Shown: piece by piece, positions 1,493 through 17,804 of the stretch
How the letters are laid out: each line of letters opens with the position of its first letter
Numbering within the stretch: the stretch's first letter is position 1
Source: Varibaculum cambriense
GTDB taxonomy: Bacteria; Actinomycetota; Actinomycetes; Actinomycetales; Actinomycetaceae
Reading direction: 5' to 3'
Assembly (NCBI RefSeq): GCF_022133705.1
Contig: NZ_JAKNHJ010000006.1
Location: 1-64,000 of the forward strand
DNA: 64,000 bases
Translations under genes and position numbers: made by a program
The notes under the pieces: model-generated
Database searches by the model: none
What the model saw: only the letters and a program-made list of their open reading frames with translations
What the model was told of the DNA's origin: nothing

Positions 1493-3055
1493 TTACTTGA
1501 ACCTGCGTGCGGTTAGTGCACCACCTGCAAGGAGCAGTAGAGCAGAGATGCTGAGTAGGGTAGCGACCTCAACACCAGTTTTAGGGAGCTTCTTCATAGG
1601 ATGGGAAGCTTGCTTATTATTAGGCTGAGCCGGCTTACAGGCTGGGGCCATTGCAGTATCGTGGCTGTCCCAGGTCCACTCAGTTACCGCGTCTTCAGCA
1701 AAGAAGTAACCGTCCAATGCGGAGGCCTTAACTTCTACCTTCGAGTTGTACGGGTAGATGTACTTGCCATCCTGGTTAGCCTTCAGCTTCACGCCGTTTG
1801 CAGTAACCGTGTAGGAAACGCCTTCGGTCTCTTGAATCGTCACGTAAGGATCGACGGTGCAAGAAGCAGGATCATCAGCGGAAGGATTGATCAGCTTAGG
1901 AGCAACCGGAGTTGCCAACTGTTCAGCTGGATCTAGTGTGCACGGTTTAGCTGCAACATTGAACTCCCACTTGGTGTCGCCCTTAACTTCGATCTTGTCC
2001 TTGAAATCCTGCTTCAATAGGGCGGCTACCGAAACTTTGGTTCCCTTGGTAACGGTTTCATAATCAAAGTACTTGGACTCGGGAAGCTGTACCGTTCCCT
2101 CAACCCCGCACTTATCTGCCTCTACTAGAGTGGGTGCCTCAGGAGTCATTGTGCGGACAGCCGAGCTTACCTTCACGGTCCAGCCATCAATGTCATTACC
2201 TTCAACGCTTTCAACGCGGAAGAGCTTAGCTTGTTCAGGATCGTCAATCGAAGCGGTCAACTGGTACCACCGGTAACGGCCAGTGTAGCCAGAGAACATG
2301 TCCAGGCTATTACCAATCGAAGCACGAGTAATAGGAGTATCCTGACGGTTCTTCGGATTGACTTCGGCAGAAGGCCTATGAGCAGCCTTATCGGCGAAAA
2401 CGTACTTGTTTGCCGCCGGGTCGCCGCCCTTGGTTATAAGGGGCTTGTAAACTTTTTCGCCATCTTCGGTAACCGGGTCTCCGGCTTTATGCTGTGAAAC
2501 TCCGATAGTAATTGTGGGGGCCTTACCCTCGGGAACCTTACCAAGATAGGTTTCCCCATCCCACTCGCCTTTAACCAACTCAAACTTGAAATCGGTGTTG
2601 GCCTGCTGGTTCATGGCGAGCTTTTTAACGCCATTGCTATAGCCGGTTGAAAAAGAGAACTGGCTGTGTCCGTACTTCCCGTCGCGATACTGGTAACAGT
2701 CCTGAACGCCGATCTTGTCAACACCCTTGTACGCGGGCTTGTCGAGTTTTATTTCAAGGGGAATTTTTTCATCTTTGCCAACAGTGAGTTGGAGCGTTGG
2801 CCACTCGTAACCAAGCTGGGAACCTGTTTTCTTGCCATCTTTGAATTCGTAAACCTCACAGTATAGAGGCACGTTAACTTCGGTGCCTTCCAGCTTGGGG
2901 TCATAGCGTTTGACCTTGTCACTCCAAGTAACATCGAAGGTCTTGACGTTGCTACCGTCGTCTACACTGTTTGCTGCTACAGCGGAAACAGCGCCCCCCA
3001 GTGTCAGTGCTGCCGCGCCTGCGAGAGCAGCCGTGGCTCGCAACCAATTCTTCAT
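1493..3055 (-). CDS. LPXTG cell-wall-anchored surface protein
   Basis: A 520-residue secreted protein. The start chosen is the ATG at 3055, because AGGAGGG lies 5 bases upstream; a longer frame would begin inside the ribosome-binding site region. Residues 1-30 form a signal peptide (K, then a hydrophobic alanine/leucine stretch ending VSAVAA). The C-terminus has the complete sortase signal: LPKTG at about residue 490, a hydrophobic segment, and a final ARRFK. The long middle region is rich in Asp, Lys, Gly and aromatic residues, contains a few cysteines, and matches no domain I recognise. It probably functions as an adhesin or exposed wall protein of a host-associated bacterium (inference). 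No sortase gene lies nearby. Confidence 0.85.
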   Translation of the reverse strand: MKNWLRATAALAGAAALTLGGAVSAVAANSVDDGSNVKTFDVTWSDKVKRYDPKLEGTEVNVPLYCEVYEFKDGKKTGSQLGYEWPTLQLTVGKDEKIPLEIKLDKPAYKGVDKIGVQDCYQYRDGKYGHSQFSFSTGYSNGVKKLAMNQQANTDFKFELVKGEWDGETYLGKVPEGKAPTITIGVSQHKAGDPVTEDGEKVYKPLITKGGDPAANKYVFADKAAHRPSAEVNPKNRQDTPITRASIGNSLDMFSGYTGRYRWYQLTASIDDPEQAKLFRVESVEGNDIDGWTVKVSSAVRTMTPEAPTLVEADKCGVEGTVQLPESKYFDYETVTKGTKVSVAALLKQDFKDKIEVKGDTKWEFNVAAKPCTLDPAEQLATPVAPKLINPSADDPASCTVDPYVTIQETEGVSYTVTANGVKLKANQDGKYIYPYNSKVEVKASALDGYFFAEDAVTEWTWDSHDTAMAPACKPAQPNNKQASHPMKKLPKTGVEVATLLSISALLLLAGGALTARRFK

Positions 3056-3223
3056 TATCCCTCCTAAATATGGTGAAAATTCCATAACTATGGTATCAAG
3101 GAAATTTGCCGTCCGGTACTCGTGCTACTTAGGTTCTAATGGTGGTTGCAACACCGAGTTTGAAAGGATGTTTCGACGGTGTTGTATGAGTATGCGGGTG
3201 TTGTTTACCCGTCTCGTTGAAAG

Positions 3224-3565
3224 ATGTGTGCTGCTCGGCGTGAGCATTATGTAGAGCTTTTGCGTCAGGGGCTGAATTTTACGCAAGCAGCCAAAGTAGT
3301 GGGTATTTCCAAACGTACCGGGAAAGTATGGTGTAATGGGCGTACTCGCTCTAGCGGGCGTAACGAAAAGGCTAGCGTTGCCTGGTACTGTGCAAAAATG
3401 CAGACCCCTGGAAATGCTGGACCGTACTATCTAGGCCTGCAAGAACGAATCATTATCGCCGATAGACTTCATGCAGGTAAAAGTATTCGCGAAAAAACCG
3501 TAAAAAACGCGATGAAGAAACCACCCCAGACCAGGCAGATAATCCCACGCAAATCGGCAGGCTAA
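3224..3565 (+). pseudogene. IS30-family transposase, N-terminal remnant
   Basis: The frame encodes an N-terminal helix-turn-helix (QGLNFTQAAKVVGISKRTG) followed by the second, IS30-type HTH beginning GLQERIIIADRLHAGKSIRE. The homology stops there. The remaining residues are low-complexity, and the DDE catalytic domain is missing. An inverted repeat (CAACACCG at 3149-3156 with CGGTGTTG at 3177-3184) precedes it and may belong to the element. I see no intact copy in the window. The segment 3566-3797 holds no gene I can support, except a short basic frame in a different phase (3481-3645) noted in the findings. Confidence 0.6.
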
Positions 3566-3797
3566 CCCGCACGCACAGAGCAAAAAAGTTTAAAGGATCG
3601 ACAAAACGTAAAGGATCACGTCATACAGCGCGACCGCGTAAATAATCGCGCACCCCCAAAACCCCTCAAACCAGCGCAAAAGCCGCCAAGCGTCCCCTCA
3701 AAACATCTCCAAGGATCTGTCTCCGGGATTTGAAAACCGGCAGTGGCAAGGGCTTTTAGTCGCCTCTTCGGTGGCCTGGTCAATTTTCCCGTTTAAA

Positions 3798-3812
3798 TTG
3801 TGATTTTCACAA
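3798..3812. promoter_or_regulatory. Palindromic operator candidate upstream of the XRE regulator
   Basis: TTGTGA and TCACAA are separated by TTT, a perfect 6-bp inverted repeat in an AT-rich stretch about 60 bases before the XRE start codon. This is the expected position for autoregulation by the downstream helix-turn-helix protein. It is an inference from position and symmetry only. Confidence 0.45.
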
Positions 3813-3870
3813 ATTTACCTTCTGTTTTCATTAATCTTCGTTTATGCTGGGGTTATAGGAGGTGTCAGAG

Positions 3871-4206
3871 ATGAAAAATATCGGAGAGCGGATTGGAAGC
3901 GCTTGCAAGGATAGCGGTCTAAGTCAAAAGCAATTAGCGGAGAAGCTGGGTTGGGATCAGGCTAGACTAAGCCGGGTGATTAGCGGTAGCCGCAAAGTTA
4001 GCGCTGGCGAGATTGCCGAAATCGCGACTATTTTGGACGTTTCTTTAGATTGGTTAATTACCGGCTCTGACCCTTATTGGGTATCCAAAAAAGAAGTGGC
4101 TGCTCGTCATGATTGGGATGGGAAAGCCAAAAAATACCACTTTAACCCGGCTGATTTAGATATTTTCCGTTCTGTTGCGTTGGTCTATAAGCAGGCATAT
4201 AGATGA
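3871..4206 (+). CDS. XRE-family transcriptional regulator paired with an ImmA/IrrE protease
   Basis: A 111-residue protein whose residues 5-62 are a typical lambda Cro/C1-type helix-turn-helix (SQKQLAEKLGWDQARLSRVI in the recognition part). The ATG at 3871 is preferred over an in-frame GTG at 3862, because AGGAGG (3857-3862) lies 8 bases before the ATG and would overlap the GTG. The last four bases overlap the next gene (ATGA), indicating translational coupling. In the known ImmR-ImmA and related Xre/COG2856 pairs, the HTH protein is a repressor that the partner protease cleaves or inactivates. That role is inferred here from family and arrangement. Confidence 0.85.
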   Translation: MKNIGERIGSACKDSGLSQKQLAEKLGWDQARLSRVISGSRKVSAGEIAEIATILDVSLDWLITGSDPYWVSKKEVAARHDWDGKAKKYHFNPADLDIFRSVALVYKQAYR

Positions 4207-4952
4207 GTGATTTGCAAGGGAAAACTCCGGAAGAAGTCTGGGAGATGCTTGGGGATAGAATTAAGATTGATTTTTCTTCCCAAATCGAAGAGTATCTACA
4301 CATTGACGTGGTGCAGATTGGGCTAGAGGGTAACGGAACCTGTCTTATACTGGATTATCGCCCGGTCATTGTGGTTCCCAGAACCGATAACTGGTTTAGG
4401 CAAGTATTTGCGATTGCCCATGAAATCGGGCATATAGCTAACGACACTACGATTAAGCGGGACGATGAAATATCAGAGCAGGAACGTGGTGCTAATCGTT
4501 TTGCTGCCGACTTATTGATGCCGAAAGTACAGGTTGAAAGGCTAGTAGAGGACAAAGCTGAACCGGCAAGGTTCGCCAAGTTTTTGTGGGATTGGGGGGT
4601 ATCAGTTGCGGCCTTGGTGAATCGGCTCAATAAGTTTGACTTACCTACCCCAGATTTTCTTTTCGAGGACGAGAAAACAATAGTTACCCAAAAATTCCTA
4701 GGTAAACATCTAAAAGAAATCGGTCTTACCTGGAGTGATGTGCAGCGCCGTGCCAGTTTATCGGGCGCGCAAAGATTTCCTGCGCATCTGCTTGCTAAGC
4801 TCTACGAACAAGTAAATAGCGGGAAAGCACCAGCGCAAACCTATGAGTGGGCTCTTGGGGTGCAAAATACTGCCACAACTGCGGAGGAATCTGCACGGGA
4901 GACACCCGAGATGCTGTCGGCAGACGAGGTTCTTGAACTGCTGGAGCAATAA
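4203..4952 (+). CDS. ImmA/IrrE family zinc metallopeptidase
   Basis: A 249-residue protein with the zinc peptidase motif HEIGH at residues 73-77 and the downstream third-ligand motif around E94 (E-R-G-A-N-R-F-A), followed by LLMP, as in the ImmA/IrrE (COG2856) family. It overlaps the XRE gene by four bases. The family cleaves helix-turn-helix repressors to derepress phage, ICE or stress genes. The C-terminal ~100 residues are an extension without a domain I recognise. No integrase or phage structural genes lie nearby, so this may be a stand-alone regulatory or toxin-antitoxin-like module rather than a prophage switch. The 137 bases after the stop codon hold nothing I can support. Confidence 0.85.
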   Translation: MSDLQGKTPEEVWEMLGDRIKIDFSSQIEEYLHIDVVQIGLEGNGTCLILDYRPVIVVPRTDNWFRQVFAIAHEIGHIANDTTIKRDDEISEQERGANRFAADLLMPKVQVERLVEDKAEPARFAKFLWDWGVSVAALVNRLNKFDLPTPDFLFEDEKTIVTQKFLGKHLKEIGLTWSDVQRRASLSGAQRFPAHLLAKLYEQVNSGKAPAQTYEWALGVQNTATTAEESARETPEMLSADEVLELLEQ

Positions 4953-5089
4953 ATCCATCCTGGCTTTTTGATAGGGAGCTAGTGCCGCTTTGGGGTTGCT
5001 TGCAGTGGTTAATTATTTGTAGGGCGCTGGTGTAAGCGGAATCGCCACCCGGGCTTTAGCCAATCTCAAATAGAAGTTGCCGGTTCGAC

Positions 5090-5371
5090 TTACATGCCGA
5101 AGAGATCGGCGTGTGAGCCAGTTCGGTTTAAGAACAATATGAGGTCTTCGCCGTCTATACGATAGACCAAGAGCCAATCCGGTTTTATATGGCATTCGCG
5201 AAATCCTCGGAAATTACCTCCAAGGTCGTGATCTCGATGTTTAGGGGCAAGAGGTTTTCTTTGGGCGAGACGGTTGATAACCGAGTTCAGCAGTTCCAGA
5301 TCTAAACCGCGTTTTTTCGCAAGTTTCAAGTCCTTCTTGAAACGGTTGGAAAGAATAATATTTAGCCTCAT
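5090..5371 (-). CDS. yafQ: YafQ-family mRNA interferase toxin
   Basis: A 93-residue RelE-superfamily toxin of the YafQ type, a ribosome-dependent endoribonuclease. The key residues line up with the family: H48 in HRDHDLGG, H61 and D65 in ECHIKPDW, and H87 in RTGSHADLF. The length is full for the family (about 92). Its ATG overlaps the antitoxin stop by four bases, so the two genes are translationally coupled and antitoxin is made first. It appears intact. Confidence 0.92.
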   Translation of the reverse strand: MRLNIILSNRFKKDLKLAKKRGLDLELLNSVINRLAQRKPLAPKHRDHDLGGNFRGFRECHIKPDWLLVYRIDGEDLILFLNRTGSHADLFGM

Positions 5372-5643
5372 GCAAGGACGTCTTTCATTGCTTCTTCGAA
5401 GCTGTTATAGCGCGGGTACTTTTCGGGGTGTGCCTTCATATCCTCGTATTCCTGCAAGGCAGCAAGAGTCTGGGCGTTGGGAATGTCGCGCGATATTTGG
5501 AACGGGATTGCCTGATCTCGCACGGTTTGCCGCAAGAATATGGTGACCGCAGTGGTTAGATCCATGCCCAGGTCTTTGAGTAAGAGCTGCGCGGAGCGCT
5601 TGAGATCGGCGTCCAGATTGATGTTGGTACTAACTTTAGCCAT
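5368..5643 (-). CDS. dinJ: RelB/DinJ-family antitoxin
   Basis: A 91-residue antitoxin. The N-terminal ribbon-helix-helix (INLDADLKRSAQLLLKDLGM, then the conserved IPF) binds DNA and the C-terminal helix would wrap the toxin. The start is the ATG at 5643, which has AGGAGGGG 6 bases upstream; an upstream in-frame start would lie before that site. It is co-transcribed with the YafQ toxin. The antitoxin-toxin complex should repress from the palindrome at 5700-5735. Confidence 0.9.
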   Translation of the reverse strand: MAKVSTNINLDADLKRSAQLLLKDLGMDLTTAVTIFLRQTVRDQAIPFQISRDIPNAQTLAALQEYEDMKAHPEKYPRYNSFEEAMKDVLA

Positions 5644-5699
5644 CTGTACCCCTCCTGTTCTGACATAAATAGTAGAAAAATTGGGGCAAAAAATCAATG

Positions 5700-5735
5700 G
5701 TTATATGCGTGCTATATGTGTAATGCGCATATAAC
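5700..5735. promoter_or_regulatory. Operator of the dinJ-yafQ toxin-antitoxin operon
   Basis: GTTATATGCG (5700-5709) and CGCATATAAC (5726-5735) form a perfect 10-bp inverted repeat with a 16-base centre. It lies about 57 bases upstream of the antitoxin start codon on the minus strand. This is the standard arrangement for a RelB/DinJ ribbon-helix-helix binding site, and I read it as the autoregulatory operator. Confidence 0.75.
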
Positions 5736-5749
5736 TATTGTTTTTTGGG

Positions 5750-5917
5750 GTTCACACCCTGGATGCGGAAACTTTAGAATTGGATGAGGACGTCTCGGCG
5801 GCGGCTGCTAACTTCCAGCCCCTGTTTGATTCCCTGGCGTCCGCGGTAACTCGGAAACGCTCCAACCTCGCTAAATTATTCGCGAGTGCTTTAGGTCTCA
5901 AGAAATATCCGAGCTGA
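5750..5917 (+). pseudogene. Fragment of an unrecognised coding sequence
   Basis: An open 55-codon frame reads VHTLDAETLELDEDVS and continues to a natural stop. Its composition is coding-like (Ala/Leu/Glu/Lys rich, no rare codons), but there is no start codon or ribosome-binding site in the right place and a stop lies just upstream. It resembles the C-terminal tail of a gene whose body has been deleted. I cannot assign a family. Confidence 0.3.
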
Positions 5918-5984
5918 TAGCGTGGCTGACGGTGCTATGAAAACTCTAGTAGGTTGGGTTTACGAAACTTTACAATCGATTGGA

Positions 5985-5990
5985 TATAAT
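5985..5990 (+). promoter_or_regulatory. Possible -10 box for the Cap4-like nuclease gene
   Basis: A perfect TATAAT lies 48 bases before the GTG start at 6038. A convincing -35 box at 16-18 bp spacing is not visible. If the box is real, transcription would start near 5997. Confidence 0.35.
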
Positions 5991-6037
5991 TTTGTTGCTC
6001 TTATGAGCTGGCTGTCTGAATAGCTCAACTAGAAAAG

Positions 6038-7255
6038 GTGTGGTTCGCATCGTCCCCCAGCGATTATTTAGATCCCCATTCACGCGGAGGATTTATTGCT
6101 TCGAAAGTTGACCAACAAGACGCTGTTGCTCTTTGGCTTGCAATGGAGCTATTCCATTCACCTGAACGTCTTGGGTTTGACCGGGAAACAGATCTTTACT
6201 TGGATTGTGAGCAAAATGAAGATTTGTGCTTTTCTGGAGCTCAACGCAGAGTGGTGGTGTCAGTAAAGAACACAAATATGACCATCGGAGAGTTTGCGGC
6301 TGAGTTGGAACGGCTTTCAACACTCGTTGCGATGAAGGAAGCTGACCTAGCACTTCTCGCGTTTATAGGCGCAGTAGACAGGAAAATCGTTGAAGCCATT
6401 AAACGTGACGAAGAATATCGGAGTCTTGTACAGGAAAAATCATTCGTGGAGTCCGTCCATATTAAGAAAGAATTCGATGAAAAATACGAAGGGGTGTTCA
6501 GCTCCGATGTGCTTCTGAGGCAATTTCCCGAACTGGACGCAGACGCATTTACTGCCGGTATTTCTCAGCTGCTCAGGCGAGCCCTTCCGATTAGCGATTA
6601 CTCAGACGAAAGGATAGAGAGCCAAATCATATTTCTGTCTGCACGCATTGCTCGTGCGCGTCGTAAACGTGGCACAGTTAGACTATCCGAACTAGCAGAG
6701 GATGTTCTATCGCTCGTATCAAACCCTATGACAAGAGGTATATTAAAAGGGTTGCCTTATAAGTTAGACTCGGCGGGCTACGTTTTGGACAGAGCGCGCG
6801 CGAATGAAATTTTCTTTTTACACAGGAAAACGCAACAGGCTCAGCGATCTACACTAAGAAAATTTCGGAAACGCCATTTTTGGCACGCGTTGGGTTGGTT
6901 AATGTTTGGGGCTCCTGTCTGTCAAAATTGTTCTCACCCGTTACTGGCAAACCTGTGTGGTCTGGGGAAACTTGGGATTGCCTGCCCAGATTGCGGTGCG
7001 ACTCCGTTTGTAACGCTTTATTTAGCGTGCCCATGTGGAGAAGCACTGTTGTTATTGGAGCAACCGCCATTGGATGATTTTTCTGCATTCAACCTTGCCT
7101 TAATAGCTTCAGTATCTGATCTGAAGTGCGGGAAGTGTGGACGCTCTGCGTCTTATGAAGACCTGGATTTGAGAGTATTTCAATTGAATATCCCAGCAGA
7201 TGACACAGTTACTGTCACTGAAGCGTTAAAAAATCTGGTAGAGCCGACCGACTAG
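6038..7255 (+). CDS. Putative Cap4-like (DUF4297-like) nuclease with C-terminal zinc ribbons
   Basis: A 405-residue protein starting at GTG 6038; the preceding GAAAAGG is a weak ribosome-binding site. Residues 16-80 show the layout of the PD-(D/E)xK-like nuclease domain found in Cap4 and DUF4297 proteins: RGGFIAS, a QQDAVALWLAMELF helix, then acidic residues E58, E61 and D62, and VVVSVK ending at K77. Residues 80-290 are mostly helical. Four cysteine pairs lie at 295/298, 316/319, 331/333 and 364/367, consistent with two zinc ribbons. It lies in a defence-type island beside a toxin-antitoxin pair and an IS element. I infer a DNA-degrading defence effector. The nuclease assignment rests on motif resemblance only. 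It could instead be an unrelated hypothetical protein. Confidence 0.5.
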   Translation: MWFASSPSDYLDPHSRGGFIASKVDQQDAVALWLAMELFHSPERLGFDRETDLYLDCEQNEDLCFSGAQRRVVVSVKNTNMTIGEFAAELERLSTLVAMKEADLALLAFIGAVDRKIVEAIKRDEEYRSLVQEKSFVESVHIKKEFDEKYEGVFSSDVLLRQFPELDADAFTAGISQLLRRALPISDYSDERIESQIIFLSARIARARRKRGTVRLSELAEDVLSLVSNPMTRGILKGLPYKLDSAGYVLDRARANEIFFLHRKTQQAQRSTLRKFRKRHFWHALGWLMFGAPVCQNCSHPLLANLCGLGKLGIACPDCGATPFVTLYLACPCGEALLLLEQPPLDDFSAFNLALIASVSDLKCGKCGRSASYEDLDLRVFQLNIPADDTVTVTEALKNLVEPTD

Positions 7256-7378
7256 TTTAGTTTCTGTTCACAAGTATCTAGCCATCGCTAAATATAAAGC
7301 TCAGCACACTATCAGTACCTATCTCGAGGTGAAGCGTCCTGGGTTTTGTTTCTACTCGTTTTTGAGAGGATTAGGGAT

Positions 7379-7696
7379 ATGTCTAAGAGGTATTCTCAGG
7401 AGTTTAAGGATCGGGCGGTGCGTATGCTCGTGGATCGCTTAGCTGGTGATGGCTCGTGTTCTCAGTGGCAGGCAGTCCGTGAGATCGCGCCGAAGCTGGG
7501 GGTTGCAAACGAGTCACTGCGCCGCTGGTATGAGCAGCATCTTGTGAACACGGGTGAACGGCAGGGGTTCACGCGTGAAGAGCATGAGGAAATCAAACGG
7601 CTTAAGCGTGAGAATGCGGAGCTGCGTAGGGCGAATGAGATTTTGAAAACTGCTTCGGCTTTTTTCGCAGCGGAGCTCAACCGACCTGCCCGATGA
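7379..7696 (+). CDS. IS3-family OrfA
   Basis: A 105-residue protein with an N-terminal helix-turn-helix (YSQEFKDRAVRMLVDRL, then the WYEQH region) and a leucine-zipper-like helix (REEHEEIKRLKRENAELRRA) used for multimerisation. The start is the ATG at 7379, following a purine-rich GAGAGGA. Its stop overlaps the first ATG of orfB in the -1 frame, the arrangement that normally gives an OrfAB fusion transposase by programmed frameshifting. Confidence 0.88.
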   Translation: MSKRYSQEFKDRAVRMLVDRLAGDGSCSQWQAVREIAPKLGVANESLRRWYEQHLVNTGERQGFTREEHEEIKRLKRENAELRRANEILKTASAFFAAELNRPAR

Positions 7697-8602
7697 TGGT
7701 TGCTTATATTGACGAATATAGGGGTCGTTTCGGGGTCGAGCCGATTTGCCGGGTACTGGGTGCGAGTCTGGAAGGAGGGTTTATTACCTTTCGCGGCTAC
7801 CGGCTAGCCAAGAGCAGACCAGCAAGTGTCAGAAGCATTCGTGATCGAAAACTTGCTAGGGAGTTGGCAGCTATTCACGCTCATAATTTCGGGGTTTACG
7901 GGATACGCAAGATGTGGCACGCAGCCAGGCGCGCGGGCTGGTATTGTTCGTGACCAGGTCGCCAGAATCATGAGGATCGCTGGGATTGCTGGTGTTCGCC
8001 GGGGACGCACAGCAATAACAACCAGACCCGCTCAAGTACCAGATTCTCGCCCGGATTTGGTTAAGCGTTGTTTTAAAGCTGGCAAACCCAATGAATTATG
8101 GGTCGCTGATATCACGTATGTGCGTACTCTGTCTGGTTTTGTTTATACAGCATTCGTTACTGACGTGTTCTCCAGGAAGATTGAGGGCTGGGCAACCAGA
8201 TTGACCATGCAAACAGAGGCATTGCCACTGGAAGCGTTAGAGCAGGCGATCCTGAACGCTAAAGAGCACCTGTCTGGCTTGGTTCACCACTCAGATCACG
8301 GTTCTCAGTACACGAGTATTATCTATAACGACAAACTCGCTCACTGGGGAATCAAACCTTCCACCGGCAGTGTGGGAGATAGCTACGATAACGCGCTAGC
8401 CGAAGCGGTCAACGACCTATATAAGAGCGAGCTGATCTATTCACAATCAGGGTCTTCTTTGACCGAGGTTGAATTCGCCACCATGAACTGGGTCCACTGG
8501 TGGAACAACCACCGCCTATACCAGGAACTCGGATACAGAAGCCCCAGCGAGATAATCACCAGCTATAATCAAACACGGGTCAACGAATTGACCCCAGTAT
8601 AA
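7693..8602 (+). pseudogene. IS3-family OrfB transposase, frameshifted
   Basis: The integrase-core reading frame is split. Codons from 7693 to about 7945 read the N-terminal part (ending GIRKMWHAARRAGW). The remainder continues in another frame from IVRDQVARIMRIAGIAGV to the stop at 8600-8602. A small net indel near 7940-7947 explains the break. The DDE catalytic core is intact after it: D in WVADITYV, D in HHSDHGSQYTS, and E in NALAEAVNDLYKSE. The intact core with one indel suggests recent inactivation. A sequencing error cannot be excluded. Confidence 0.82.
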
Positions 8603-8799
8603 AAAGCGGAACAAAACCCAGTACGCTTCAGACTTCGAAATTTTGGTGTCAGAAGAATTGTGCCAATCTACAAAGACAACAAGTGGGCTACAAGGACACC
8701 CCGGGTAGCTTGACATGGTATACCAACTGAAAATACGGGTCGCTGGGGTAATATTGAAGAAATTCGGTAACCGAAACCCAAGAATATGGTGGGTAGCAG

Positions 8800-9840
8800 A
8801 TGAACGTAGAAGCAATAGATTTGTTTTGTGGCGTGGGAGGGTTAACTAGGGGTCTAATAGACGCCGGTGTTCCTGTTGTTGCAGGCTACGATAATGACCC
8901 TACTTGTAAATTTGCGTATGAAAAAAATAATTTGGTCAATTTTTACGAAAGAGACATAAAAACGTTACATGGAAAAGAACTTAAAACGCTGTATGATCAA
9001 AACTCAATAAAAGTATTGGTCGGTTGTGCTCCATGTCAACCATTTTCCTCAATGCGCTCAAAATTAGGTATAGAGAATACAATGGATGAGAAGTATGGTC
9101 TGCTTCTTGAATTCGGCAGAGTAATCTCTGAGCTAAAGCCGGATATTATATCTATGGAAAATGTTCCTCAACTAATGAAAACAGACGTCTATCATGAGTT
9201 TATTAAAATAATTGAGGATAATGACTATTTCCATGACGAAGGGGTTGTCTATTGCCCTGATTATGGTATATCTCAGACTAGAAGAAGATTTGTCTTACTG
9301 GCATCAAAACTAAGAAAGATTACACTGAGTTCACCACAGACAACAAAACCTCTAGACCCTCCACTAACAGTAGATGTTATTGGCGCGTTACCCCCTATTG
9401 CAGCTGGCGAGGTTTGTGATAATGATCCATTACACAGAGCATCTAAGCTTTCAGCAACGAATTTAATACGAATTCAGGCATCCAGGCCGGGTGGCTCGTG
9501 GAAAGACTGGCCTGCAGCTTTGCGCTGTAAATGTCATCAAGAGAAATCAGGAAAAACTTATGGTTCTGTATATGGAAGATTGAAGTGGAATCAAATTGGT
9601 CCAACTATCACCACACAGTTTTATTCCTATGGAACCGGAAGATTTGGTCATCCTTCGCAGGATCGAGCTTTGTCGTTAAGAGAGGGTGCTATGTTCCAGA
9701 CCTTCCCCAAAAATTATGACTTCATTGATCCTTCAGTGCCGTTTTCATTTCGCCGTATAGCGAGACATATTGGAAACGCTGTGCCTGTCAGGCTGGGCGA
9801 GGTAATTGGCAACTCAATTTTGAACCACGTGTCAGATTAA
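8800..9840 (+). CDS. DNA cytosine-C5 methyltransferase
   Basis: A 346-residue methyltransferase that transfers a methyl group from S-adenosylmethionine to C5 of cytosine. Motif I is DLFCGVGGLTRG (residues 7-18), motif IV has the catalytic PCQP, motif VI has ENV, motif VIII has QTRRRF, and motif X has GNAVP near the C-terminus. The variable target-recognition region is fairly short, so specificity cannot be read. Codon use is markedly AT-rich compared with the flanking core genes, a sign of transfer. It is followed 29 bases later by a GHKL ATPase gene rather than a recognisable restriction endonuclease, so the two probably form one system. Confidence 0.92.
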   Translation: MNVEAIDLFCGVGGLTRGLIDAGVPVVAGYDNDPTCKFAYEKNNLVNFYERDIKTLHGKELKTLYDQNSIKVLVGCAPCQPFSSMRSKLGIENTMDEKYGLLLEFGRVISELKPDIISMENVPQLMKTDVYHEFIKIIEDNDYFHDEGVVYCPDYGISQTRRRFVLLASKLRKITLSSPQTTKPLDPPLTVDVIGALPPIAAGEVCDNDPLHRASKLSATNLIRIQASRPGGSWKDWPAALRCKCHQEKSGKTYGSVYGRLKWNQIGPTITTQFYSYGTGRFGHPSQDRALSLREGAMFQTFPKNYDFIDPSVPFSFRRIARHIGNAVPVRLGEVIGNSILNHVSD

Positions 9841-9869
9841 TCAAGAGTTCACCGAAAATGGAGGTTGCT

Positions 9870-11516
9870 ATGGATGAGTTTAGTTTTAATATTTCTCTAA
9901 GCGTTCTGAATCATTTAGGTAGGAATCTTTATAGAAATATAATTACGATTCTTGGTGAGGCTATTTCAAATTCTTGGGATGCAGATGCCCATAACGTGCG
10001 AATTGAGATCAACCGGCAGGACCGTACAATGTTAATTGTTGATGATGGTCTAGGGATGACGGCAAAAGATTTTCAAAATAAGTTTCTAAAGATTGGTTAT
10101 AGTAAACGTAAGACCGGCATATATAAATCAAAATTAAATCGAAGGTTTATTGGTAGAAAAGGTATTGGTAAACTAGCATTATTATCTTGTGCACAAAGAA
10201 TTAGTGTACTTACTAAGACTAAAACAACCGATGTTGTCGGCGGGGTAATTGATAATTCTGAATTAGATAAAGCAATTAAAGAAGACGAAGTTTCGGGCGA
10301 TTATCACTTAAGTAAAGTTAATGCAAAGCTATATCGTCTTTTGGATGAGAAGGAACAAGGTACAGCGATTTTTTTTGAAAACATAACAGACGGAATTTAT
10401 AATACAGTTGAGTATATTAGAAAAGCTATATCTCTCTATTTTAAATTTTCCTTGTATGATTCTGATTTTAACATTTTTGTTAATGGTAAAAAGATAGAAA
10501 TTTCTGAATTAAAGGAATTGGCAAATAATACTCAGTTTCGGTGGTCGATAAATAACTTTACTGATCCATTATTTTCTATGATGAATGAATTAGATAATGT
10601 AATCGAGGTATCAACAAAACTTAATATTCGTGGATATATTGCTACTGTAAGAAAACCCTCAAATTTAAAAATTCCTAACACGAACGAGAAGGCTACAGTA
10701 GATTTATTTGTGAATGGTCGTCTAAGGGAGCGAGATGTTGTAAGACATATTCCTACAGCTAGGATTGTTGAAAATTACGTTTATGGACAGATTCATTACG
10801 ATGACCTAGATAATGGCAGTGGAAAAGATATCTTTACGAGCAGTCGTGAAGGTATTGTTCCTAATGATCCTATTTTCAATAATTTCCTTGTTGAGTTCAA
10901 AAAGATTTTTAAGCAAGTGATAAATGAATGGGATGATTATCGACGACAGGCGCTAGATACTGGTGATCCAGATAATTTTAAAATAAAACCGAAAGAGCGA
11001 AAAGCAGAGGAACTTTTTAGTCTCACCATAAAAGATATGCAGGAAAAGGAGAAGTTTATTAGAAAGGGGGGTACTGTTCAGCAGTGGGCACAAACTCTTG
11101 CTTCCGAAGCACGATTTAATATCCCTTCATATACAGAATGTTTCATCTCGGAAAACCTTTTAAGATTTTATATAAAAAATACCGATAAGCCACTTTCTCA
11201 GGAGGCCATTAGGCAAGCCAAAAAATGGAAAAAGAGAGAGAATGAAAGCAAGAATGCTGCTAATATAAGCTATTCCGTTAGAGTGGATGAAGGGGATTTA
11301 TACTATCTTGATATGTCTGATTTAGCAAACCTAATAGATAAAGCCAAAAACCAAAAAAGTGCTAGTCTTAGCCGATCTTCAATCACTTATAAACCACTCA
11401 GAGACGCTATTGGGCACACCTCTATTATTACCGATAACGCCAAGCGTCAGCTCTCTTTGACCTACGAAAATATTAAGAAAAGATTAGGGGAGATATTATC
11501 TCAAGTTAAAGATTGA
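9870..11516 (+). CDS. MORC-like GHKL ATPase with a possible C-terminal HEPN domain, partner of the C5 methyltransferase
   Basis: The start is the ATG at 9870, because GGAGG (9860-9864) lies 5 bases before it; the in-frame ATG at 9858 overlaps that site. This gives 548 residues. The N-terminal Hsp90/MutL-type ATPase motifs are clear: E-A-I-S-N-S-W-D-A-D-A (N box), DDGLGM (G1 box) and GRKGIGKLAL (G2 lid). A second domain of the S5-like type is likely up to about residue 350. The C-terminal 170 residues are helical, with R-D-A-I-G-H at about residues 511-516, matching the R-x4-H catalytic motif of HEPN nucleases. Prokaryotic MORC-type ATPases are known partners of restriction-modification genes. 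The HEPN call is my inference. The gene is strongly AT-rich. Confidence 0.7.
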   Translation: MDEFSFNISLSVLNHLGRNLYRNIITILGEAISNSWDADAHNVRIEINRQDRTMLIVDDGLGMTAKDFQNKFLKIGYSKRKTGIYKSKLNRRFIGRKGIGKLALLSCAQRISVLTKTKTTDVVGGVIDNSELDKAIKEDEVSGDYHLSKVNAKLYRLLDEKEQGTAIFFENITDGIYNTVEYIRKAISLYFKFSLYDSDFNIFVNGKKIEISELKELANNTQFRWSINNFTDPLFSMMNELDNVIEVSTKLNIRGYIATVRKPSNLKIPNTNEKATVDLFVNGRLRERDVVRHIPTARIVENYVYGQIHYDDLDNGSGKDIFTSSREGIVPNDPIFNNFLVEFKKIFKQVINEWDDYRRQALDTGDPDNFKIKPKERKAEELFSLTIKDMQEKEKFIRKGGTVQQWAQTLASEARFNIPSYTECFISENLLRFYIKNTDKPLSQEAIRQAKKWKKRENESKNAANISYSVRVDEGDLYYLDMSDLANLIDKAKNQKSASLSRSSITYKPLRDAIGHTSIITDNAKRQLSLTYENIKKRLGEILSQVKD

Positions 11517-11900
11517 TAGTGCGAAGCTATTGTTCCGTGGGAAACCCCCTACGGTCTTCCGGCAGACCGGCTACTATCTGGGGGTCTACTCTTCGTTCTT
11601 CGGAGTACCTTACTATGCGTAGCCCCAGATTTGGTCCACTGTCCTCGTCCTCTTTTTCGGCCTCGACATACAAGGTAGTCACGTCATACAACACAGGGAC
11701 AAATCCCCTGTTTTAGCGGCATGTCTGAAACAAGCTGCAGCAATCCTGGAAGGGTACTCTTGCCTGGCACAGTGTTGCAGGGTAGTGAACACGGTTCGCA
11801 CACTCGTATTCTCCACCTCGAGCTCTATAAAAACTGTACTGTGTAGGCCTTGGAGGCGGGCTCCGCAGTCCTGGCCGTAACCAGCTGCTCAAACGTCCTA
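11516..11900 (-). pseudogene. IS1634-family transposase remnant
   Basis: On the minus strand, broken pieces of an IS1634/IS1549-type transposase can be read in order. The first is FEQLVTARTAEPASKAY (near 11,900-11,850). The second reads SRIAAACFRHAAKTGDLSL. After a frameshift comes LYDVTTLYVEAEKED, then SEERRVDPQIVAGL, ending in a stop at 11527-11529. Stop codons and frameshifts interrupt it and the C-terminal half of the transposase is missing. It abuts the stop codon of the GHKL gene, so it marks a rearrangement boundary. The remaining bases to 12,044 hold no gene I can support. Confidence 0.75.
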
Positions 11901-12044
11901 TAGCCTATAGCCTAACCGAAACCAAAAACTCAATACGCATCACCTAGGACTCCCGACAACAGTACTTAGCGTTTAGACAAGGTGTTAGCACGTGAGGCGT
12001 CGGCGCAACCAGTATCAAACAAGTCGAATTCCAATTGCCTGGGA

Positions 12045-12437
12045 CTAAGATCCCTGCGGCCTTTTCTCTAGTAATAGCTGGAGTTTAGCCTCATCAAGTG
12101 CCGAGCCTAGATGTTTTATAACCCTGTTTACACGACCCGGTTTCGCCAATATCTGCACATCCGTCGCATCAGAGGCAGTTCTCACTTCACGCAGTGGAGC
12201 CAACCGGGAAAATACAAATTTTACCCAGCTTTGGAAATCTTGCTGCCGTTCAACTAATGCGGATAATCCATCCACCCTAAACGGCGGAGAAATTATTTTA
12301 AGAGTATCCAAGGTAGAAAATTGCTTCGCTAAGGATTCAGCCACCGGAACAAGCGAAGGTGTCGCAAGCGGGCGAACTTTTCCAAATCTCTTCCCCAAAA
12401 GCTTATCGAAGCTATTATTTTGGGATTCTGTACTCAT
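12045..12437 (-). CDS. Hypothetical protein downstream of the type ISP enzyme
   Basis: A 130-residue protein I do not recognise. It is Leu/Val/Lys rich and predicted soluble, with no signal peptide or membrane segment. A central aromatic patch (FQSWVKFVF) and a helical C-terminus (LDEAKLQLLLEK) are the only visible features. It begins 82 bases after the type ISP restriction gene on the same strand, with no terminator between them that I can see, so it may be a co-transcribed accessory gene. No strong ribosome-binding site precedes its ATG. Confidence 0.5.
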   Translation of the reverse strand: MSTESQNNSFDKLLGKRFGKVRPLATPSLVPVAESLAKQFSTLDTLKIISPPFRVDGLSALVERQQDFQSWVKFVFSRLAPLREVRTASDATDVQILAKPGRVNRVIKHLGSALDEAKLQLLLEKRPQGS

Positions 12438-12519
12438 ATCTACTAGCTTTCAGATCTAGAACTAGCATCTCAGTTCATTACAAGCTTGCCGGGTTACCGT
12501 CTGGTTAACCGATCCTTGC

Positions 12520-15500
12520 TCACTGTTCTTCATCGATGATGAATTCTGGGAGTGCGCGCGTTAGCTCTAGGGTGCGCATCGATACCGTGACTAATGCCGG
12601 AATTAGTTTAGCGATATAGGCAGGATCATTAATTTCACGACAATAATCATTGGGGTCATTGACAATGCCACTCTTGGTATCAGTCTTGATACGATAGCGA
12701 TCCACCATCCACTCTAAGGGGCTGCGTCCACCTATCTTGTATTCATTAGCTTGTTCAGGAATCCCCGTGAACGTCAGATACTCGTTATACACCAAGGTAG
12801 TGTAATCCTTGGAACGTTTACCGGGCTTCTTCCCCCAGACCAGTTGTTTTAGGTGATACTTCTGCCAATCATCATCGGGTGCAATCAGACTGGTTTTTGC
12901 GGTAACTCCTGGATAGGGGGCGACTTCTTCATAGTTCACGTGTAGTTCCGCTAGTTCCCGCCCGATATTGGCGTAGCTCCAAAAATCCTGCACCTTCGGA
13001 ATTCGAGGCAGCATCTTCTTCAAATCAGCTTCATAACGTTCCCGGAACTGCGGATGGTGCAGCAGGGCATAGATATAAAAGAAAATATCTTCTTTGCTGA
13101 TCACCTCTTCCCGATAATGATGGCGGTAGGCGCTAAGCGTGGCATCGGTAATGTTGTCTCGGCGGCAGTAGCCGTTAATTTTTGCCGGTACCTGTGAGCT
13201 GATGGGCTTATTAAAATCAAAACTCCCAGAAAATTCCTCCGGCGTATCAAGATCTTCCCAGTTACCCGTAGACGCAAATAATGAATTATCATTCCCGGTT
13301 TTTTCTGTTTTCTCCCAGGTATAAAGGGGGAATACTTGACTAGTGCCGACTAAATGCAAATCAGGTATGTGCGCAACTAGGAAACCTGTTCCTTCTTTTA
13401 TCGCATCGCTATCTATGGATATTCCTAGATTGGGCTGCTTGGGAGTGGGGAAAATCTGTGGTAGCTGATAAATCATGTCATTCATCGTCTGCTTAAAATA
13501 GACAGACTGTTTACAGAAAGGACGATACATTGACAGATTTAAGGCGTTAGATACAAATTTGTGCTGAGCTTGTTTATCTAAGTCTTTTAGTAACTGCCGG
13601 TTCCAAGCAATCTTTGTTTTGTCATTTATAGTATTTTTGCTGGTATGTCCGCAGGATACCTCCTGGTTGTAGTTATCAATCATTCGTTGCATATTTGATT
13701 CCACGGCCTGGCGTGAGAAGTTATAGCACCAAGCATCGCGGTTAGTCTTAAGTCCTCCCGAGTACTGTTGGAAAACCGCAGGTGTATTAACTTTGCCCTT
13801 GGTGCGCTTGTCCCCGATTTCCTGGAACTCCAGGTATCTTTCATCGCGTTGGTTAATCCAATCCCCATGAGCATTAGGGCTAATTAGTTCGAAGTCGGTA
13901 TCTGCTATGGAAGCTTCTCGCGTTAGCAGATCTAATTTTTCCTGTCGTGCCAGATAGTCTCCCACCTCGGCGTAATGAATGCGGCAGGGGCGCGAAAGAG
14001 CATCTTTCTTCTTAACCAGGAGGGTAATCGCCACACCGGTGCGGGATCCTTCTCCAAATACGTTTCCTGCTTCTTGGCGTCTGCGTTCACCTTGGGTGCG
14101 GGCATTACCTCGCAGGTTATATATATAAATATCGCTAAATTCTTCCGCCCAACTGAGGCGAACCCCATCAGCGGTATTGCCATCAATAAAGGAACTATTG
14201 GATACAAAGGCGATAATTCCTTCTTCCCCGACACGGTCACTTGCCCAGCGCAGAGCCCGGAAGTAAGAATCGTAGAGGCTATTTTTATTAGTGGCGCTAG
14301 AACGAGCCACATAAGTATTTTCTATCCGCGCATCCAATTGGGGATACTTTAAATTCTGATTATTATCGTTCGCACTCTTTTGTCCGGCAGAATAGGGTGG
14401 ATTCATCACTACCACCCGGATGGGAGCTTCCCGCTGCCGCTTAACGCGCTCCAGATTGGCCTGAAAATCACCAATACCAGCAAGTTGTCCCTCACCTTCG
14501 CGTAGTTGGAAGGTATCGGTCAAAGTGATGCCCGGAAATTCCAGATACCCTTGGTCTTGTCCGCGGTCCGCTCGAATCTGGTGATAAACCTGCTCGATAT
14601 TAATACTGGCGATATAGTAGCTGAGCAGTACGATTTCATTAGCAAAAATTTCGTGTAGATATTTGTGCTCGAGCTGTTCAGGGGAAATAATCTCGGATTG
14701 CAGCAAGCGACTTACGAAAGTTCCGGTTCCCAAGAAGGGATCAATAATCGATACTCCACTATCACCCAGGCTCTTACCAAAGTGTCGTTGCATGGCGTAC
14801 TCCGCCGATTTTAGGATGTAATCCACCACCGGCACCGGGGTAAACACTATCCCCAGGCGATCCTTAATCGCGGGGAAAGCCTTGGAAAAGAACCGATCGT
14901 AAAGAGTGCGCATGATTTCTTGTTTGCCAGCAAGATTATCGATGCTAGTAATCTTCTCGGCCATAGTGGCATAGAATTTTGCCAGCGGTTCCCTCTCATT
15001 TTCAAAAACTTGATTGGTAGCTAGGCGATCCAAAATAGCTTGCATCGCCTGGCTAACCGGGTTTTGGGCGGTGAAGTCCTGATTTGGGAACATGGCATCA
15101 AATAGCGGCTTAGTAATCAGATGCTGTGCCAGCATCTCCACCGCCTCGGCATTGTCAATAGCCGGATTCAAAGTAGTTTGCAAAGATTCCACAAACTTAG
15201 CGAAGTAATCTTGATTTAGCGGATCTTCGAGAAGATGATCAATCAGGTTAATATAGCGGCTGGCAATATCAGCAATGTCTTGGCTCCAGTCATCCCAGTA
15301 AAGCCGGTTACCAACTTTCTTCACTATTTTGGAATAAACCGCATCTTTCCATTCGGAACTGGGAATGTTTAACATGGCTTGAACTCCGCTGACTGCGTTA
15401 TCCGCAGGAATGCCATCACCAGTTCCAACTTCAGTGCCTTCGATGTAGGTAGTAGAACCAGAGCCACGCTCTTTTGATTGGGCGAGATTTACTACCTCCA

Positions 15501-17628
15501 CCATGATGTTTTCGGGAGGATTTTCGTTGTACTCGATGGCGTTTATCGTGGAATCAAAACGTTCGTCATGAGCGCGAATAGCTTGTAGCACCTGCCAGAC
15601 AACCGCAAAGCGCTTATTATCATCCATTGCCTTTTCCGGTTCAGTGCCAACCGGTACCGCAACCGGCAAAATAATATAGCCAAACTCTTTGCCCTCGGCT
15701 TTGCGCATAAACCTACCGACTGCTTGGATTACATCCACCTGCGACCTGCGAGGATTGAGGAAAAGTACCGCATCCAGGGTAGGAACGTCTACTCCCTCAG
15801 AAAGGCAGCGAGCATTGGTAAGAATGCGGCAAACTGGATGATCATCTGAGGTTTCTGACTTTAACCAATCGAGTGCTTCGCCACGCTCGATAGCATTCAT
15901 GGAACCATCCACGTGCTTACACTGCACTTCCAGGTTATCGCTCTCATCGGTGTTATTGAGGTCTTGTAGGTGAGTGCGTACTAACTCTGGGAACTCAGCA
16001 GTTACCTGTTTCGAGGTCTTGATATCTTTGGCAAAAGCCACAGCTCGGCGCATCGGTGATTTATCTTCGCCGTATTGCACATCAAATAGGTCATTTTTAC
16101 GTTTGGAAAGGGCATTCCAACATCCCACGAGTTTCGCGGCTTCGGGGATCGTTAGTTCGCCTTCGGGGAGATCTTGTTGGAAAAACTGGGTAATCTGATC
16201 TTCCGGTATAGCCAGGACTACCACTTTATAATCGGTGAGTAACCCCAAACTTACAGCTTGACCGAATCCTAGTCGATGAAAAACCTTGCCATAAAGAGAT
16301 TCATCATCCATCGAAGCAAGAATCGCATCGTTTTCTTTCGCTACGTTCTTCACTCGAGGCTGGAAAATGCGCGGGGTAGCAGTCATATAAAGCCGTTTTT
16401 CCGCGCGTAAATAAGTGTTGTCGTGTACCCGAGTAAAAGCAGACTCGTCCTCACCCGAAAGAGTAACGCCTGTGGTCCTATGTGCTTCATCGCAAATAAT
16501 CAGATCGAAGTCACGCCATTGCTTTCCCGCGAGTTCTTGTGCCTGATGCACGATATCAATCGATTGATAGGTACAGAACACTACTTGCAGTCCTTCATCA
16601 TCTTGGTGTTTTAAGAGAGAATCTGCAAGTTTCTTGGCATCGGTAGTGGGGGGAGTTTTCAAATCAACGGTGGCGATATCCACCAGGTCTTCGTGTTTCC
16701 TACGTTTGCGGTTAACTTTGGTGTCCGAGCAAACACTCCAAGCGGAAAAAGGAACCTGCACTTCAGATGCCCATTCGCTGAGAGTCTGACTCATTAGAGA
16801 CAAAGACGGAACCATAAACATGATGCGAGCATTTCCGTCAAGATCATCGGTGAGCTGTTCAGCGATTTTTAGCGAGGTGAAGGTTTTCCCGGTACCGCAG
16901 GCCATCACCAAGGTTCCTCTATCGTGAGACTTGAACCCCTCGAACACATCATTTATTGCATTTACCTGGTGGTCGCGCAAAATTTTAGGTTGCCGATGCT
17001 GAGGAGCATCGTCAGGGGCATTAAAAGAATAAGTAGCCCAGTCAATATTCGAATTGCGCAAATCAGTAAGCCCGATTCGAGTAACTGGCTTACTTTGCCC
17101 TTCGATAGCTGTTTCGGCATTATCGCTCCAAGGCACGCCAGTAGTTTCTACAAAAATGCGACGCTTAAACGGTTCCTTACCAGAATCAGAAAGAAACGAA
17201 TCGAGATTCCCTTTTTGGATCGTGTGACCCTGGCGGTAAAACTTGCATTGAATCGCCACCGCAGGGGTGTCAGCTGTCGGTTCTGAGCCATCGGCAGGCA
17301 TATCTTCGGTCTCAATCGCTACCAGATCAATCCCGGTATCTGGTTTTCCAGCCAAGCCACCACCAGGCCAGTCCCTCCACAGATATACTGCACCGAACTG
17401 CGGCCCCATCTGCGAATCATTGAGCAGATATGAACGAATTAGCTGCTCGAACAAGTTACCTTTATTGCGTTCCGAATCAGCGATTTCGCGATATTCAGTT
17501 AACAGCGCGTCAAAAGCGGCAACGCTACGGGCTGCTTCTTGCTGGGTATCTACCGCATTCAAGGAATCCGAGGCGGAGATACCTTCACCTTTTGGAGCGG
17601 CATGCTCTGAAAAAATATCGGTGTTCAA
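12520..17628 (-). CDS. Type ISP restriction-modification enzyme (single-chain nuclease-helicase-methyltransferase)
   Basis: A 1702-residue protein that fits the LlaGI/LlaBIII class, in which one chain cuts, translocates and methylates DNA. Residues 55-150 form an Mrr-like nuclease (GIDLV with D101, then IQCK with K129). The helicase follows: ACGTGKT (Walker A, 243-249) and DEAH (380-383), plus a later VGRFMRK motif VI. The amino-methyltransferase has DPFLGTGTF from D963 and NPPY at 1076-1079. The last ~400 residues are the coupler and target-recognition part. The start is TTG, with AAGGAGA 6-8 bases upstream; I see no better start. Known enzymes are about 1570 residues, so this one is slightly long. 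It looks intact and is probably an active defence system. Confidence 0.9.
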   Translation of the reverse strand: MNTDIFSEHAAPKGEGISASDSLNAVDTQQEAARSVAAFDALLTEYREIADSERNKGNLFEQLIRSYLLNDSQMGPQFGAVYLWRDWPGGGLAGKPDTGIDLVAIETEDMPADGSEPTADTPAVAIQCKFYRQGHTIQKGNLDSFLSDSGKEPFKRRIFVETTGVPWSDNAETAIEGQSKPVTRIGLTDLRNSNIDWATYSFNAPDDAPQHRQPKILRDHQVNAINDVFEGFKSHDRGTLVMACGTGKTFTSLKIAEQLTDDLDGNARIMFMVPSLSLMSQTLSEWASEVQVPFSAWSVCSDTKVNRKRRKHEDLVDIATVDLKTPPTTDAKKLADSLLKHQDDEGLQVVFCTYQSIDIVHQAQELAGKQWRDFDLIICDEAHRTTGVTLSGEDESAFTRVHDNTYLRAEKRLYMTATPRIFQPRVKNVAKENDAILASMDDESLYGKVFHRLGFGQAVSLGLLTDYKVVVLAIPEDQITQFFQQDLPEGELTIPEAAKLVGCWNALSKRKNDLFDVQYGEDKSPMRRAVAFAKDIKTSKQVTAEFPELVRTHLQDLNNTDESDNLEVQCKHVDGSMNAIERGEALDWLKSETSDDHPVCRILTNARCLSEGVDVPTLDAVLFLNPRRSQVDVIQAVGRFMRKAEGKEFGYIILPVAVPVGTEPEKAMDDNKRFAVVWQVLQAIRAHDERFDSTINAIEYNENPPENIMVEVVNLAQSKERGSGSTTYIEGTEVGTGDGIPADNAVSGVQAMLNIPSSEWKDAVYSKIVKKVGNRLYWDDWSQDIADIASRYINLIDHLLEDPLNQDYFAKFVESLQTTLNPAIDNAEAVEMLAQHLITKPLFDAMFPNQDFTAQNPVSQAMQAILDRLATNQVFENEREPLAKFYATMAEKITSIDNLAGKQEIMRTLYDRFFSKAFPAIKDRLGIVFTPVPVVDYILKSAEYAMQRHFGKSLGDSGVSIIDPFLGTGTFVSRLLQSEIISPEQLEHKYLHEIFANEIVLLSYYIASINIEQVYHQIRADRGQDQGYLEFPGITLTDTFQLREGEGQLAGIGDFQANLERVKRQREAPIRVVVMNPPYSAGQKSANDNNQNLKYPQLDARIENTYVARSSATNKNSLYDSYFRALRWASDRVGEEGIIAFVSNSSFIDGNTADGVRLSWAEEFSDIYIYNLRGNARTQGERRRQEAGNVFGEGSRTGVAITLLVKKKDALSRPCRIHYAEVGDYLARQEKLDLLTREASIADTDFELISPNAHGDWINQRDERYLEFQEIGDKRTKGKVNTPAVFQQYSGGLKTNRDAWCYNFSRQAVESNMQRMIDNYNQEVSCGHTSKNTINDKTKIAWNRQLLKDLDKQAQHKFVSNALNLSMYRPFCKQSVYFKQTMNDMIYQLPQIFPTPKQPNLGISIDSDAIKEGTGFLVAHIPDLHLVGTSQVFPLYTWEKTEKTGNDNSLFASTGNWEDLDTPEEFSGSFDFNKPISSQVPAKINGYCRRDNITDATLSAYRHHYREEVISKEDIFFYIYALLHHPQFRERYEADLKKMLPRIPKVQDFWSYANIGRELAELHVNYEEVAPYPGVTAKTSLIAPDDDWQKYHLKQLVWGKKPGKRSKDYTTLVYNEYLTFTGIPEQANEYKIGGRSPLEWMVDRYRIKTDTKSGIVNDPNDYCREINDPAYIAKLIPALVTVSMRTLELTRALPEFIIDEEQ

Positions 17629-17804
17629 GGTACTTCTCCTTCGATAAATTTAGTTCGCCAAGACCGTTTGTCAGGGGCGGCATCCTCGCGTTATCGCAGA
17701 TTCTTATGGGTGCATAGGTGCCTGTCTATAAATAAGATATCGCTTGGTGAACGCTTACACTTTAAGCCTCGCTGGGTAGTTTCGGTTTTGGTGTGGTTAG
17801 TTAA

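Follow-up and report, generated by a model that had tools for sequence, protein, structure and literature searches.

A 64,000-nucleotide stretch of Varibaculum cambriense DNA (assembly GCF_022133705.1, contig NZ_JAKNHJ010000006.1, positions 1 to 64,000; referred to as the window) carries a two-gene module in which a C5 cytosine DNA methyltransferase gene is followed by a gene for a GHKL ATPase with a HEPN-like C-terminal domain. The pair is probably a type II restriction–modification (R–M)-like system with a HEPN RNase as its effector instead of a DNA nuclease. It is most likely best described as a methylation-guarded RNase version of a type II R–M system, acting in abortive infection or plasmid addiction. 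An earlier sequence-only reading had located both open reading frames (ORFs) and named the two families in this order, and profile searches confirmed it on each count. The features of the pair, in window coordinates, are:

8800..9840, + strand: C5 cytosine DNA methyltransferase gene (346 residues; PF00145 2.1e-52, dcm TIGR00675 7e-33)
9858..11516, + strand: GHKL ATPase gene with C-terminal HEPN-like domain (552 residues; PF13589 1.7e-18)
9879..10952, + strand: GHKL + S5 ATPase module (residues 8-365; NF050001 positions 1-364 of 659; PHROG 6203 1.3e-64)
11076..11513, + strand: HEPN-like C-terminal domain of ~150 residues (about 407-552), in place of a nuclease half
11400..11417, + strand: R515-x4-H520, predicted HEPN catalytic pair, kept in 7/7 loci

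The gene pair and its relatives

The same C-terminal domain was found at seven loci including the window, which together represent six distinct sequences. Two of them lie on alphaproteobacterial plasmids, namely pBM153 of Paracoccus tegillarcae (L004; ATPase 49.5% identical to that of the window over 98%) and pP73D of Celeribacter indicus (L005), whose C-terminal piece is nearly identical to that of Paracoccus. Three are found on viral contigs of IMG/VR: 2693429856 (L024), 2899009680 (L068) and 3300006033 (L116), with contig 3300027851 (L117) giving the same protein as L116. The remaining locus (L104) encodes a full-length relative in genome G1176, which belongs to the window's family but to a different genus. 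We refer to these systems as HEPN type, and to relatives with a restriction-endonuclease-type C-terminal half as nuclease type. In 7/7 HEPN-type loci the gene immediately upstream, on the same strand, encodes a C5 methylase of the same subfamily, so that the linkage of ATPase and methylase, which the sequence-only reading had proposed to examine in other genomes, holds throughout. The two genes are spaced by 17 bases in the window, and in the other six loci the methylase overlaps the ATPase frame (annotated or longest ORFs). At positions 1645-6092 of L005, an IS1380 transposase splits the ATPase–HEPN gene and leaves the methylase ORF whole; this single case is the pattern that might be expected if the effector were the costlier partner.

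The ATPase lacks a nuclease half

The HATPase_c_3 family (PF13589) matches the ATPase at residues 32-126. E34/N38, D62-x-G-x-G and G99..G104-K105, which we take to be the GHKL ATP-binding motifs, are invariant in an alignment of five ATPase sequences. NF050001, the profile of the BbrUII/HgiDII restriction enzymes, matches residues 8-365 only (1.7e-85). Because profile positions 365-659 are missing, the whole protein scores 288 bits against a curated cut-off of 550 and falls outside that family. The same truncation is seen in all five HEPN-type proteins scanned (the set without L116 and the split Celeribacter protein), where the match ends at position 364-373 of 659, whereas it reaches 658-659 in 9/9 nuclease-type proteins. 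Correspondingly, the tail after residue 365 comprises 187 residues in the window protein and 180-194 in four relatives, compared to 287-310 in 17 nuclease-type proteins. The restriction-endonuclease-type C-terminal half is absent from the window ATPase. As NF050001 stops at about position 364 in the HEPN type and continues to 658-659 in the nuclease type, the window protein has the ATPase half of a BbrUII/HgiDII-type enzyme and a different effector half.

In paraMORC3 proteins, the GHKL and S5 domains are followed by an E-D-ExK nuclease domain (Iyer et al. 2008, PMC2292703). The BbrUII/HgiDII enzymes (NF050001; paraMORC3) have the GHKL+S5 module, the methylase subfamily and a mostly two-gene layout in common with the window pair. 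Conversely, their 287-310-residue C-terminal part is of restriction-endonuclease type (PMC2292703), while the window protein carries the shorter HEPN-like domain. The ATPase module thus corresponds by sequence to paraMORC3 rather than MORC. This refines the earlier designation as a MORC-like GHKL ATPase. In Pfam, DUF4263 (Shedu nuclease) did not match the ATPase or its C-terminus, and a PDB sequence search with the N-terminus gave HSP90.

The C-terminal domain

The C-terminal domain is very probably a HEPN domain, an assignment based on the conservation of the motif, on weak to moderate profile matches (PDC-M34B, CARF-HEPN) and on a profile link between PDC-M34B and HEPN_Swt1. The R-x4-H motif that had been noted in the last domain as R511/H516, numbered from an internal ATG (alternative start at 9870, giving 548 residues), is R515/H520 when counted from the first ATG at 9858. 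The ATPase has two R-x4-H motifs (R292 and R515), of which only the one at R515 is kept in all five aligned sequences. With its equivalents in L116 and in the Celeribacter piece, the R/H pair, whose conservation across homologues the sequence-only reading had wanted checked, is present in 7/7 loci and agrees with the R-x4-6-H spacing of HEPN domains. The four aligned relatives share 39.6, 35.3, 36.8 and 20.8% C-terminal identity with the window. Among the five sequences, 17/153 C-terminal columns are invariant, including R515 and H520 as well as E432, N433, R436, R475, Y483, T521 and N538; by arithmetic from 17/153, the chance of two named columns both being invariant is ~1%.

The PADLOC profile PDC-M34B matched the C-terminal piece of L104 with E=1.1e-5 (1.1e-4 for the whole protein), and the window C-terminus was weakly matched both by PDC-M34B (E=0.0018-0.0025) and by the end of the CARF_HEPN profile (E=0.001-0.0013). 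A further locus, L066, was matched by PDC-M34B (2.6e-13) and by HEPN_Swt1 (PF18731, 7.6e-4, below the Swt1 cut-off); in the HHalign comparisons it was part of the PDC-M34B set and not of the Swt1 set. A profile of six C-terminal sequences aligned with PDC-M34B over 117 columns (P=1.5e-4, probability 51%). With five sequences the probability was 42%, and the E..LR, L.Y..L and R-x4-H blocks were in register. PDC-M34B itself aligned with HEPN_Swt1 at 93% probability. The underlying sets comprised 4 domains of 6 places for Ymh, 8/9 places for Swt1 and 11/12 places for PDC-M34B, and reversed controls gave 0.1% in 11/11 comparisons and 0.1-0.2% in two others.

Several observations weigh against the assignment. 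None of the Pfam HEPN families matched the C-terminus directly. Direct HHalign comparison of the C-terminus with HEPN_Swt1 (0.4%) and Ymh (0.8%) was not significant; the positive control, Ymh against Swt1, fails likewise (1.1%). In a four-member set, PDC-M34B matches 2/4 and CARF_HEPN 1/4 members. Neither profile matches the C-terminus of L068. Moreover, 7/11 aligned PDC-M34B domains have R-x4-R and not R-x4-H, and it should be noted that these seven are near-copies from one genus. The best Pfam E-value for the window C-terminal piece was 0.027; Pfam, NCBIfam and PHROG gave no family beyond chance, and a PDB search returned chance matches only (spike glycoprotein, ribokinase, DEP-domain protein; best E 0.046). 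Ymh (PF09509) was absent at E<=10 from the Pfam matches of the window, Paracoccus, L024, L068 and L104 proteins. Judged by these profile comparisons, the domain appears nearer to PDC-M34B/HEPN_Swt1 than to Ymh.

The methylase and its exchange with nuclease-type systems

The PF00145 match spans residues 5-341 of the methylase, and the PCQ, ENV and RRR residues, which include the catalytic PC and ENV motifs, are invariant in a five-row alignment. The best PADLOC profile is DrmMII of DISARM; the DISARM companions DrmA, DrmB and DrmC were not found among the neighbouring ORFs scanned (9, 5 and 8 per scan, a part of the ORFs). The window methylase aligns over its full length with 16 methylases of nuclease-type systems, RRR-PTITT region included, and is placed by this comparison in the subfamily partnered with BbrUII/HgiDII-type enzymes. 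As the RRR-PTITT region aligns across 21 methylase rows with many shared residues, the methylases of the family are suggested to form one recognition class. M.HgiDII, which gave the family its name, is reported to methylate GTCGAC (PMC5867850). On the strength of the same alignment, the site of the window enzyme may fall into this class; this is a guess from relatives, the window methylase having been compared within the family and not with M.HgiDII itself, a point that likewise counts against our reading of the pair.

A methylase of the subfamily is present in the fetched stretch of 16/17 nuclease-type loci used for the trees (not L093) and of 6/8 weaker nuclease-type relatives (not L083 and L085). 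The tree of the ATPase module contained 23 rows, six of HEPN type and 17 of nuclease type; the weaker relatives L082-L089, the split L005 and the duplicates L070, L117, L118 and L069 were left out. Here, the HEPN type forms one side of a long branch with a support of 100/100. A recent domain swap was rejected, as this long branch splits the HEPN-type ATPases from those of the nuclease type; for the same reason the change of effector, in whichever direction it went, is old. The methylase tree (22 rows, L093 having no methylase in its stretch) places the L104 methylase among those of nuclease-type systems. A single clade for all six HEPN-type methylases was rejected by the approximately unbiased (AU) test (p-AU 6.8e-5), and was not rejected without L104 (p-AU 0.143). 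Because the HEPN-type ATPases group together and their methylases do not, the trees indicate, under this model, at least one methylase exchange between HEPN-type and nuclease-type systems, both types drawing on one pool of methylases.

One nuclease-type relative lies in the E. coli phage PhiR44_1 (L003, 5001-8049), which encodes an apparently full-length BbrUII-type enzyme (751 bits) and a convergent Dcm gene. This protein, annotated as ‘ParaMORC3’ beside the Dcm gene, is one of the nine full-span NF050001 matches.

Distribution

The HEPN-type ATPase is rare. Among 396 genomes of the phylum the window genome alone carries it, and likewise among 394 of the class, while 0/395 genomes in the class of G263 were positive. 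In a set of 149 relatives two were found (the window genome and G1176), with 0/5 among the other genomes of the same genus listed; the sets overlap in part. PLSDB holds 34 records that match the ATPase, two of them with the C-terminus. A single-sequence scan of genome contigs gave one distant locus only. A first scan of viral sequences gave no match, and later scans gave L024 (also as L069), L068 and L116/L117. No DNA match of the pair was found in E. coli genomes. Assembly contamination was also weighed; the presence of a full-length relative in G1176, which is of the same family but a different genus, makes it less likely.

Some HEPN-type loci carry further genes of note. In L104, a Vsr mismatch endonuclease gene (9261-9704, - strand; PF03852 1.1e-20) directly follows the ATPase–HEPN gene, and in L004 the annotation places a Vsr next to another Dcm. 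The phage-like contig of L068 encodes a standalone Ymh-HEPN protein (7573-8373, + strand; PADLOC PD-Lambda-3_B 7.7e-77) ~1 kb downstream of the pair, placing two HEPN-type genes close together.

Proposed function and alternatives

In the mechanism we propose, the methylase would mark and protect host sites, and the GHKL dimer would recognise the same site when unmethylated, be it on incoming phage or plasmid DNA or on host DNA after loss of the methylase. ATP-driven closure would then pair two HEPN domains, whose R-x4-H sites would cut RNA (tRNA or mRNA). The outcome would be abortive infection or, where a plasmid or prophage carries the pair, addiction to that element. That the unmethylated site directly triggers the HEPN RNase, i.e. 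that a site-specific, methylation-sensitive sensor has been rewired from DNA to RNA cutting, is a serious possibility that we advance tentatively. Under such rewiring, DNA would have to be recognised by the GHKL+S5 module, and the shared site would make methylases exchangeable between the DNA- and RNA-cutting versions. If correct, a two-gene module would turn the recognition of an unmarked site straight into RNA damage, linking classical R–M to abortive infection in one small module and giving plasmids and prophages a toxin guarded by methylation. Moreover, as ~365 residues are shared, a comparison of nuclease and HEPN types would reveal which part of GHKL restriction enzymes reads DNA and in what way ATP use controls the effector.

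Related arrangements have been described. Fusions of HEPN to paraMORC in R–M neighbourhoods were proposed in 2013 for Ymh (Anantharaman et al., PMC3710099), with the HEPN part as a proposed RNase effector analogous to PrrC/RloC. These Ymh-HEPN-paraMORC proteins belong to the same architecture class as the window pair, GHKL-HEPN beside R–M genes; the window domain, however, has no PF09509 match, and the 2013 fusions were compared by their description only (PMC3710099). VcSduA of V. cholerae similarly combines a GHKL ATPase with a C-terminal nuclease, the DUF4263 Shedu nuclease, and both parts are needed for phage defence (PMC12137116). Its effector is a PD-(D/E)xK nuclease and, unlike for the window pair, a methylase partner is not mentioned in the portion of PMC12137116 available. 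The biochemistry of bacterial MORC proteins has been called poorly understood (PMC8011034), and the available text of the paraMORC papers PMC8011034 and PMC12137116 does not mention ‘HEPN’.

The architecture class of HEPN on paraMORC in R–M loci is already known from the 2013 proposal. What appears to be new, by sequence comparison, is the other HEPN family, a defined arrangement of two genes in which the methylases are HgiDII-like, and the evidence of methylase exchange with nuclease-type R–M. The ATPase modules of the HEPN type are, in addition, set apart from the BbrUII/HgiDII type on a long branch. A pair of the window type was not described in the literature searched, which lay outside subscription papers and most preprints. 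Overall, the interpretation offered by the sequence-only reading is partly supported.

PrrC (EcoprrI), which works with a type I R–M enzyme, and RloC couple a HEPN RNase to an R–M context. They use an ABC-type ATPase (PMC3710099), in contrast to the GHKL ATPase of the window.

Alternatively, the pair could be a toxin–antitoxin-like addiction module, in which the methylase would serve as an antitoxin that marks DNA, the ATPase–HEPN protein would kill cells that lose it, and phage defence would be secondary. We regard this as unlikely, albeit 2/7 loci are on plasmids and 3/7 on IMG/VR viral contigs, integrase-, recombinase- or phage-like ORFs were recognised by eye on the latter, and the window copy sits beside an insertion sequence (IS) element in a tract of low guanine-plus-cytosine (GC) content. 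The same anatomy fits defence, so that sequence cannot separate the two, and the L104 copy lies among cell-wall and ABC-transporter ORFs that look chromosomal by eye.

It is less likely still that the HEPN ATPase is a guard resembling PrrC/RloC, silenced by a separate event and not itself reading DNA methylation, the event being a phage anti-restriction factor that acts on the methylase or on a neighbouring R–M enzyme. The ATPase module is shared with a family of restriction enzymes, and no ORF of type ISP size is present in the stretches of the other six loci, which are short (L024 begins at the methylase). Still, the 2013 survey likened paraMORC-HEPN fusions to PrrC and RloC (PMC3710099), and a type ISP enzyme is encoded 1 kb away in the window. 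Finally, a degenerate or non-catalytic helical C-terminal domain (structural, DNA-binding or dimerisation), which would make the pair an R–M remnant or an accessory recruiting another nuclease such as Vsr, would agree with the missing direct Pfam HEPN match and with the Vsr gene adjoining the pair in L104, but is improbable given that R and H are invariant while C-terminal identity drops to 20.8% and that L104 is the one locus where a Vsr was noted next to the pair, the remaining loci not having been profile-searched for it.

Genomic surroundings in the window

The base composition of the pair is unlike that of the core genes, as had been observed from the sequence alone. The GC content is 40.6% for the methylase and 34.1% for the ATPase, compared to a mean of 54.1% (sd 1.7, minimum 50.8; n=29) for core ORFs. 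The reference comprises the 29 ORFs beyond 21 kb from a list of 39 of the 47 window ORFs, 8 overlapping or embedded ORFs being left out. Positions 1-20000 are also low (46.2%), and the pair has the two lowest values. Based on the low GC content of the pair and of the first 20 kb, the pair sits in a foreign-looking tract. In 4/4 relatives measured, the GC content of the pair is likewise below that of the whole fetched locus (L004 54.5 v 58.9, L024 53.2 v 64.8, L068 44.2 v 50.2, L104 51.1 v 64.5%).

The following element adjoins the pair upstream and is not part of the system:

7330..8630, + strand: IS3-like insertion element (inverted repeats 7330-7350 and 8610-8630; HTH_Tnp_1 and rve ORFs)

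In agreement with the earlier remark that a separate endonuclease is missing, none is encoded immediately next to the pair. The nearest recognised endonuclease gene, 1 kb downstream on the opposite strand, encodes a type ISP single-chain R–M enzyme (12520-17628, - strand; PF18135 3e-102, PADLOC 2320 bits), a proximity that gives the tract the look of a defence island. Further upstream, the C-terminal part of a type I restriction R subunit (216-1397, + strand; EcoR124_C 1e-59) is probably cut by the contig start. It is followed by an IrrE/ImmA-like peptidase M78 protein (4203-4952, + strand; 2.8e-13), a type often tied to mobile elements, and by a toxin–antitoxin pair at 5090-5697 (- strand), made up of a YafQ toxin (3.7e-33) and an antitoxin of RelB type (3.4e-8). 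Between this pair and the IS element stands the gene of a 405-residue protein (6038-7255, + strand) that has Cys pairs in its zinc-ribbon-like C-terminus and matches no family convincingly. Beyond the low-GC tract, a gene for an impB/mucB/samB-family polymerase protein (PF00817) overlaps a DNA polymerase III alpha-type gene (21351-25993, + strand), a layout that resembles the ImuB-DnaE2 mutagenesis pair.

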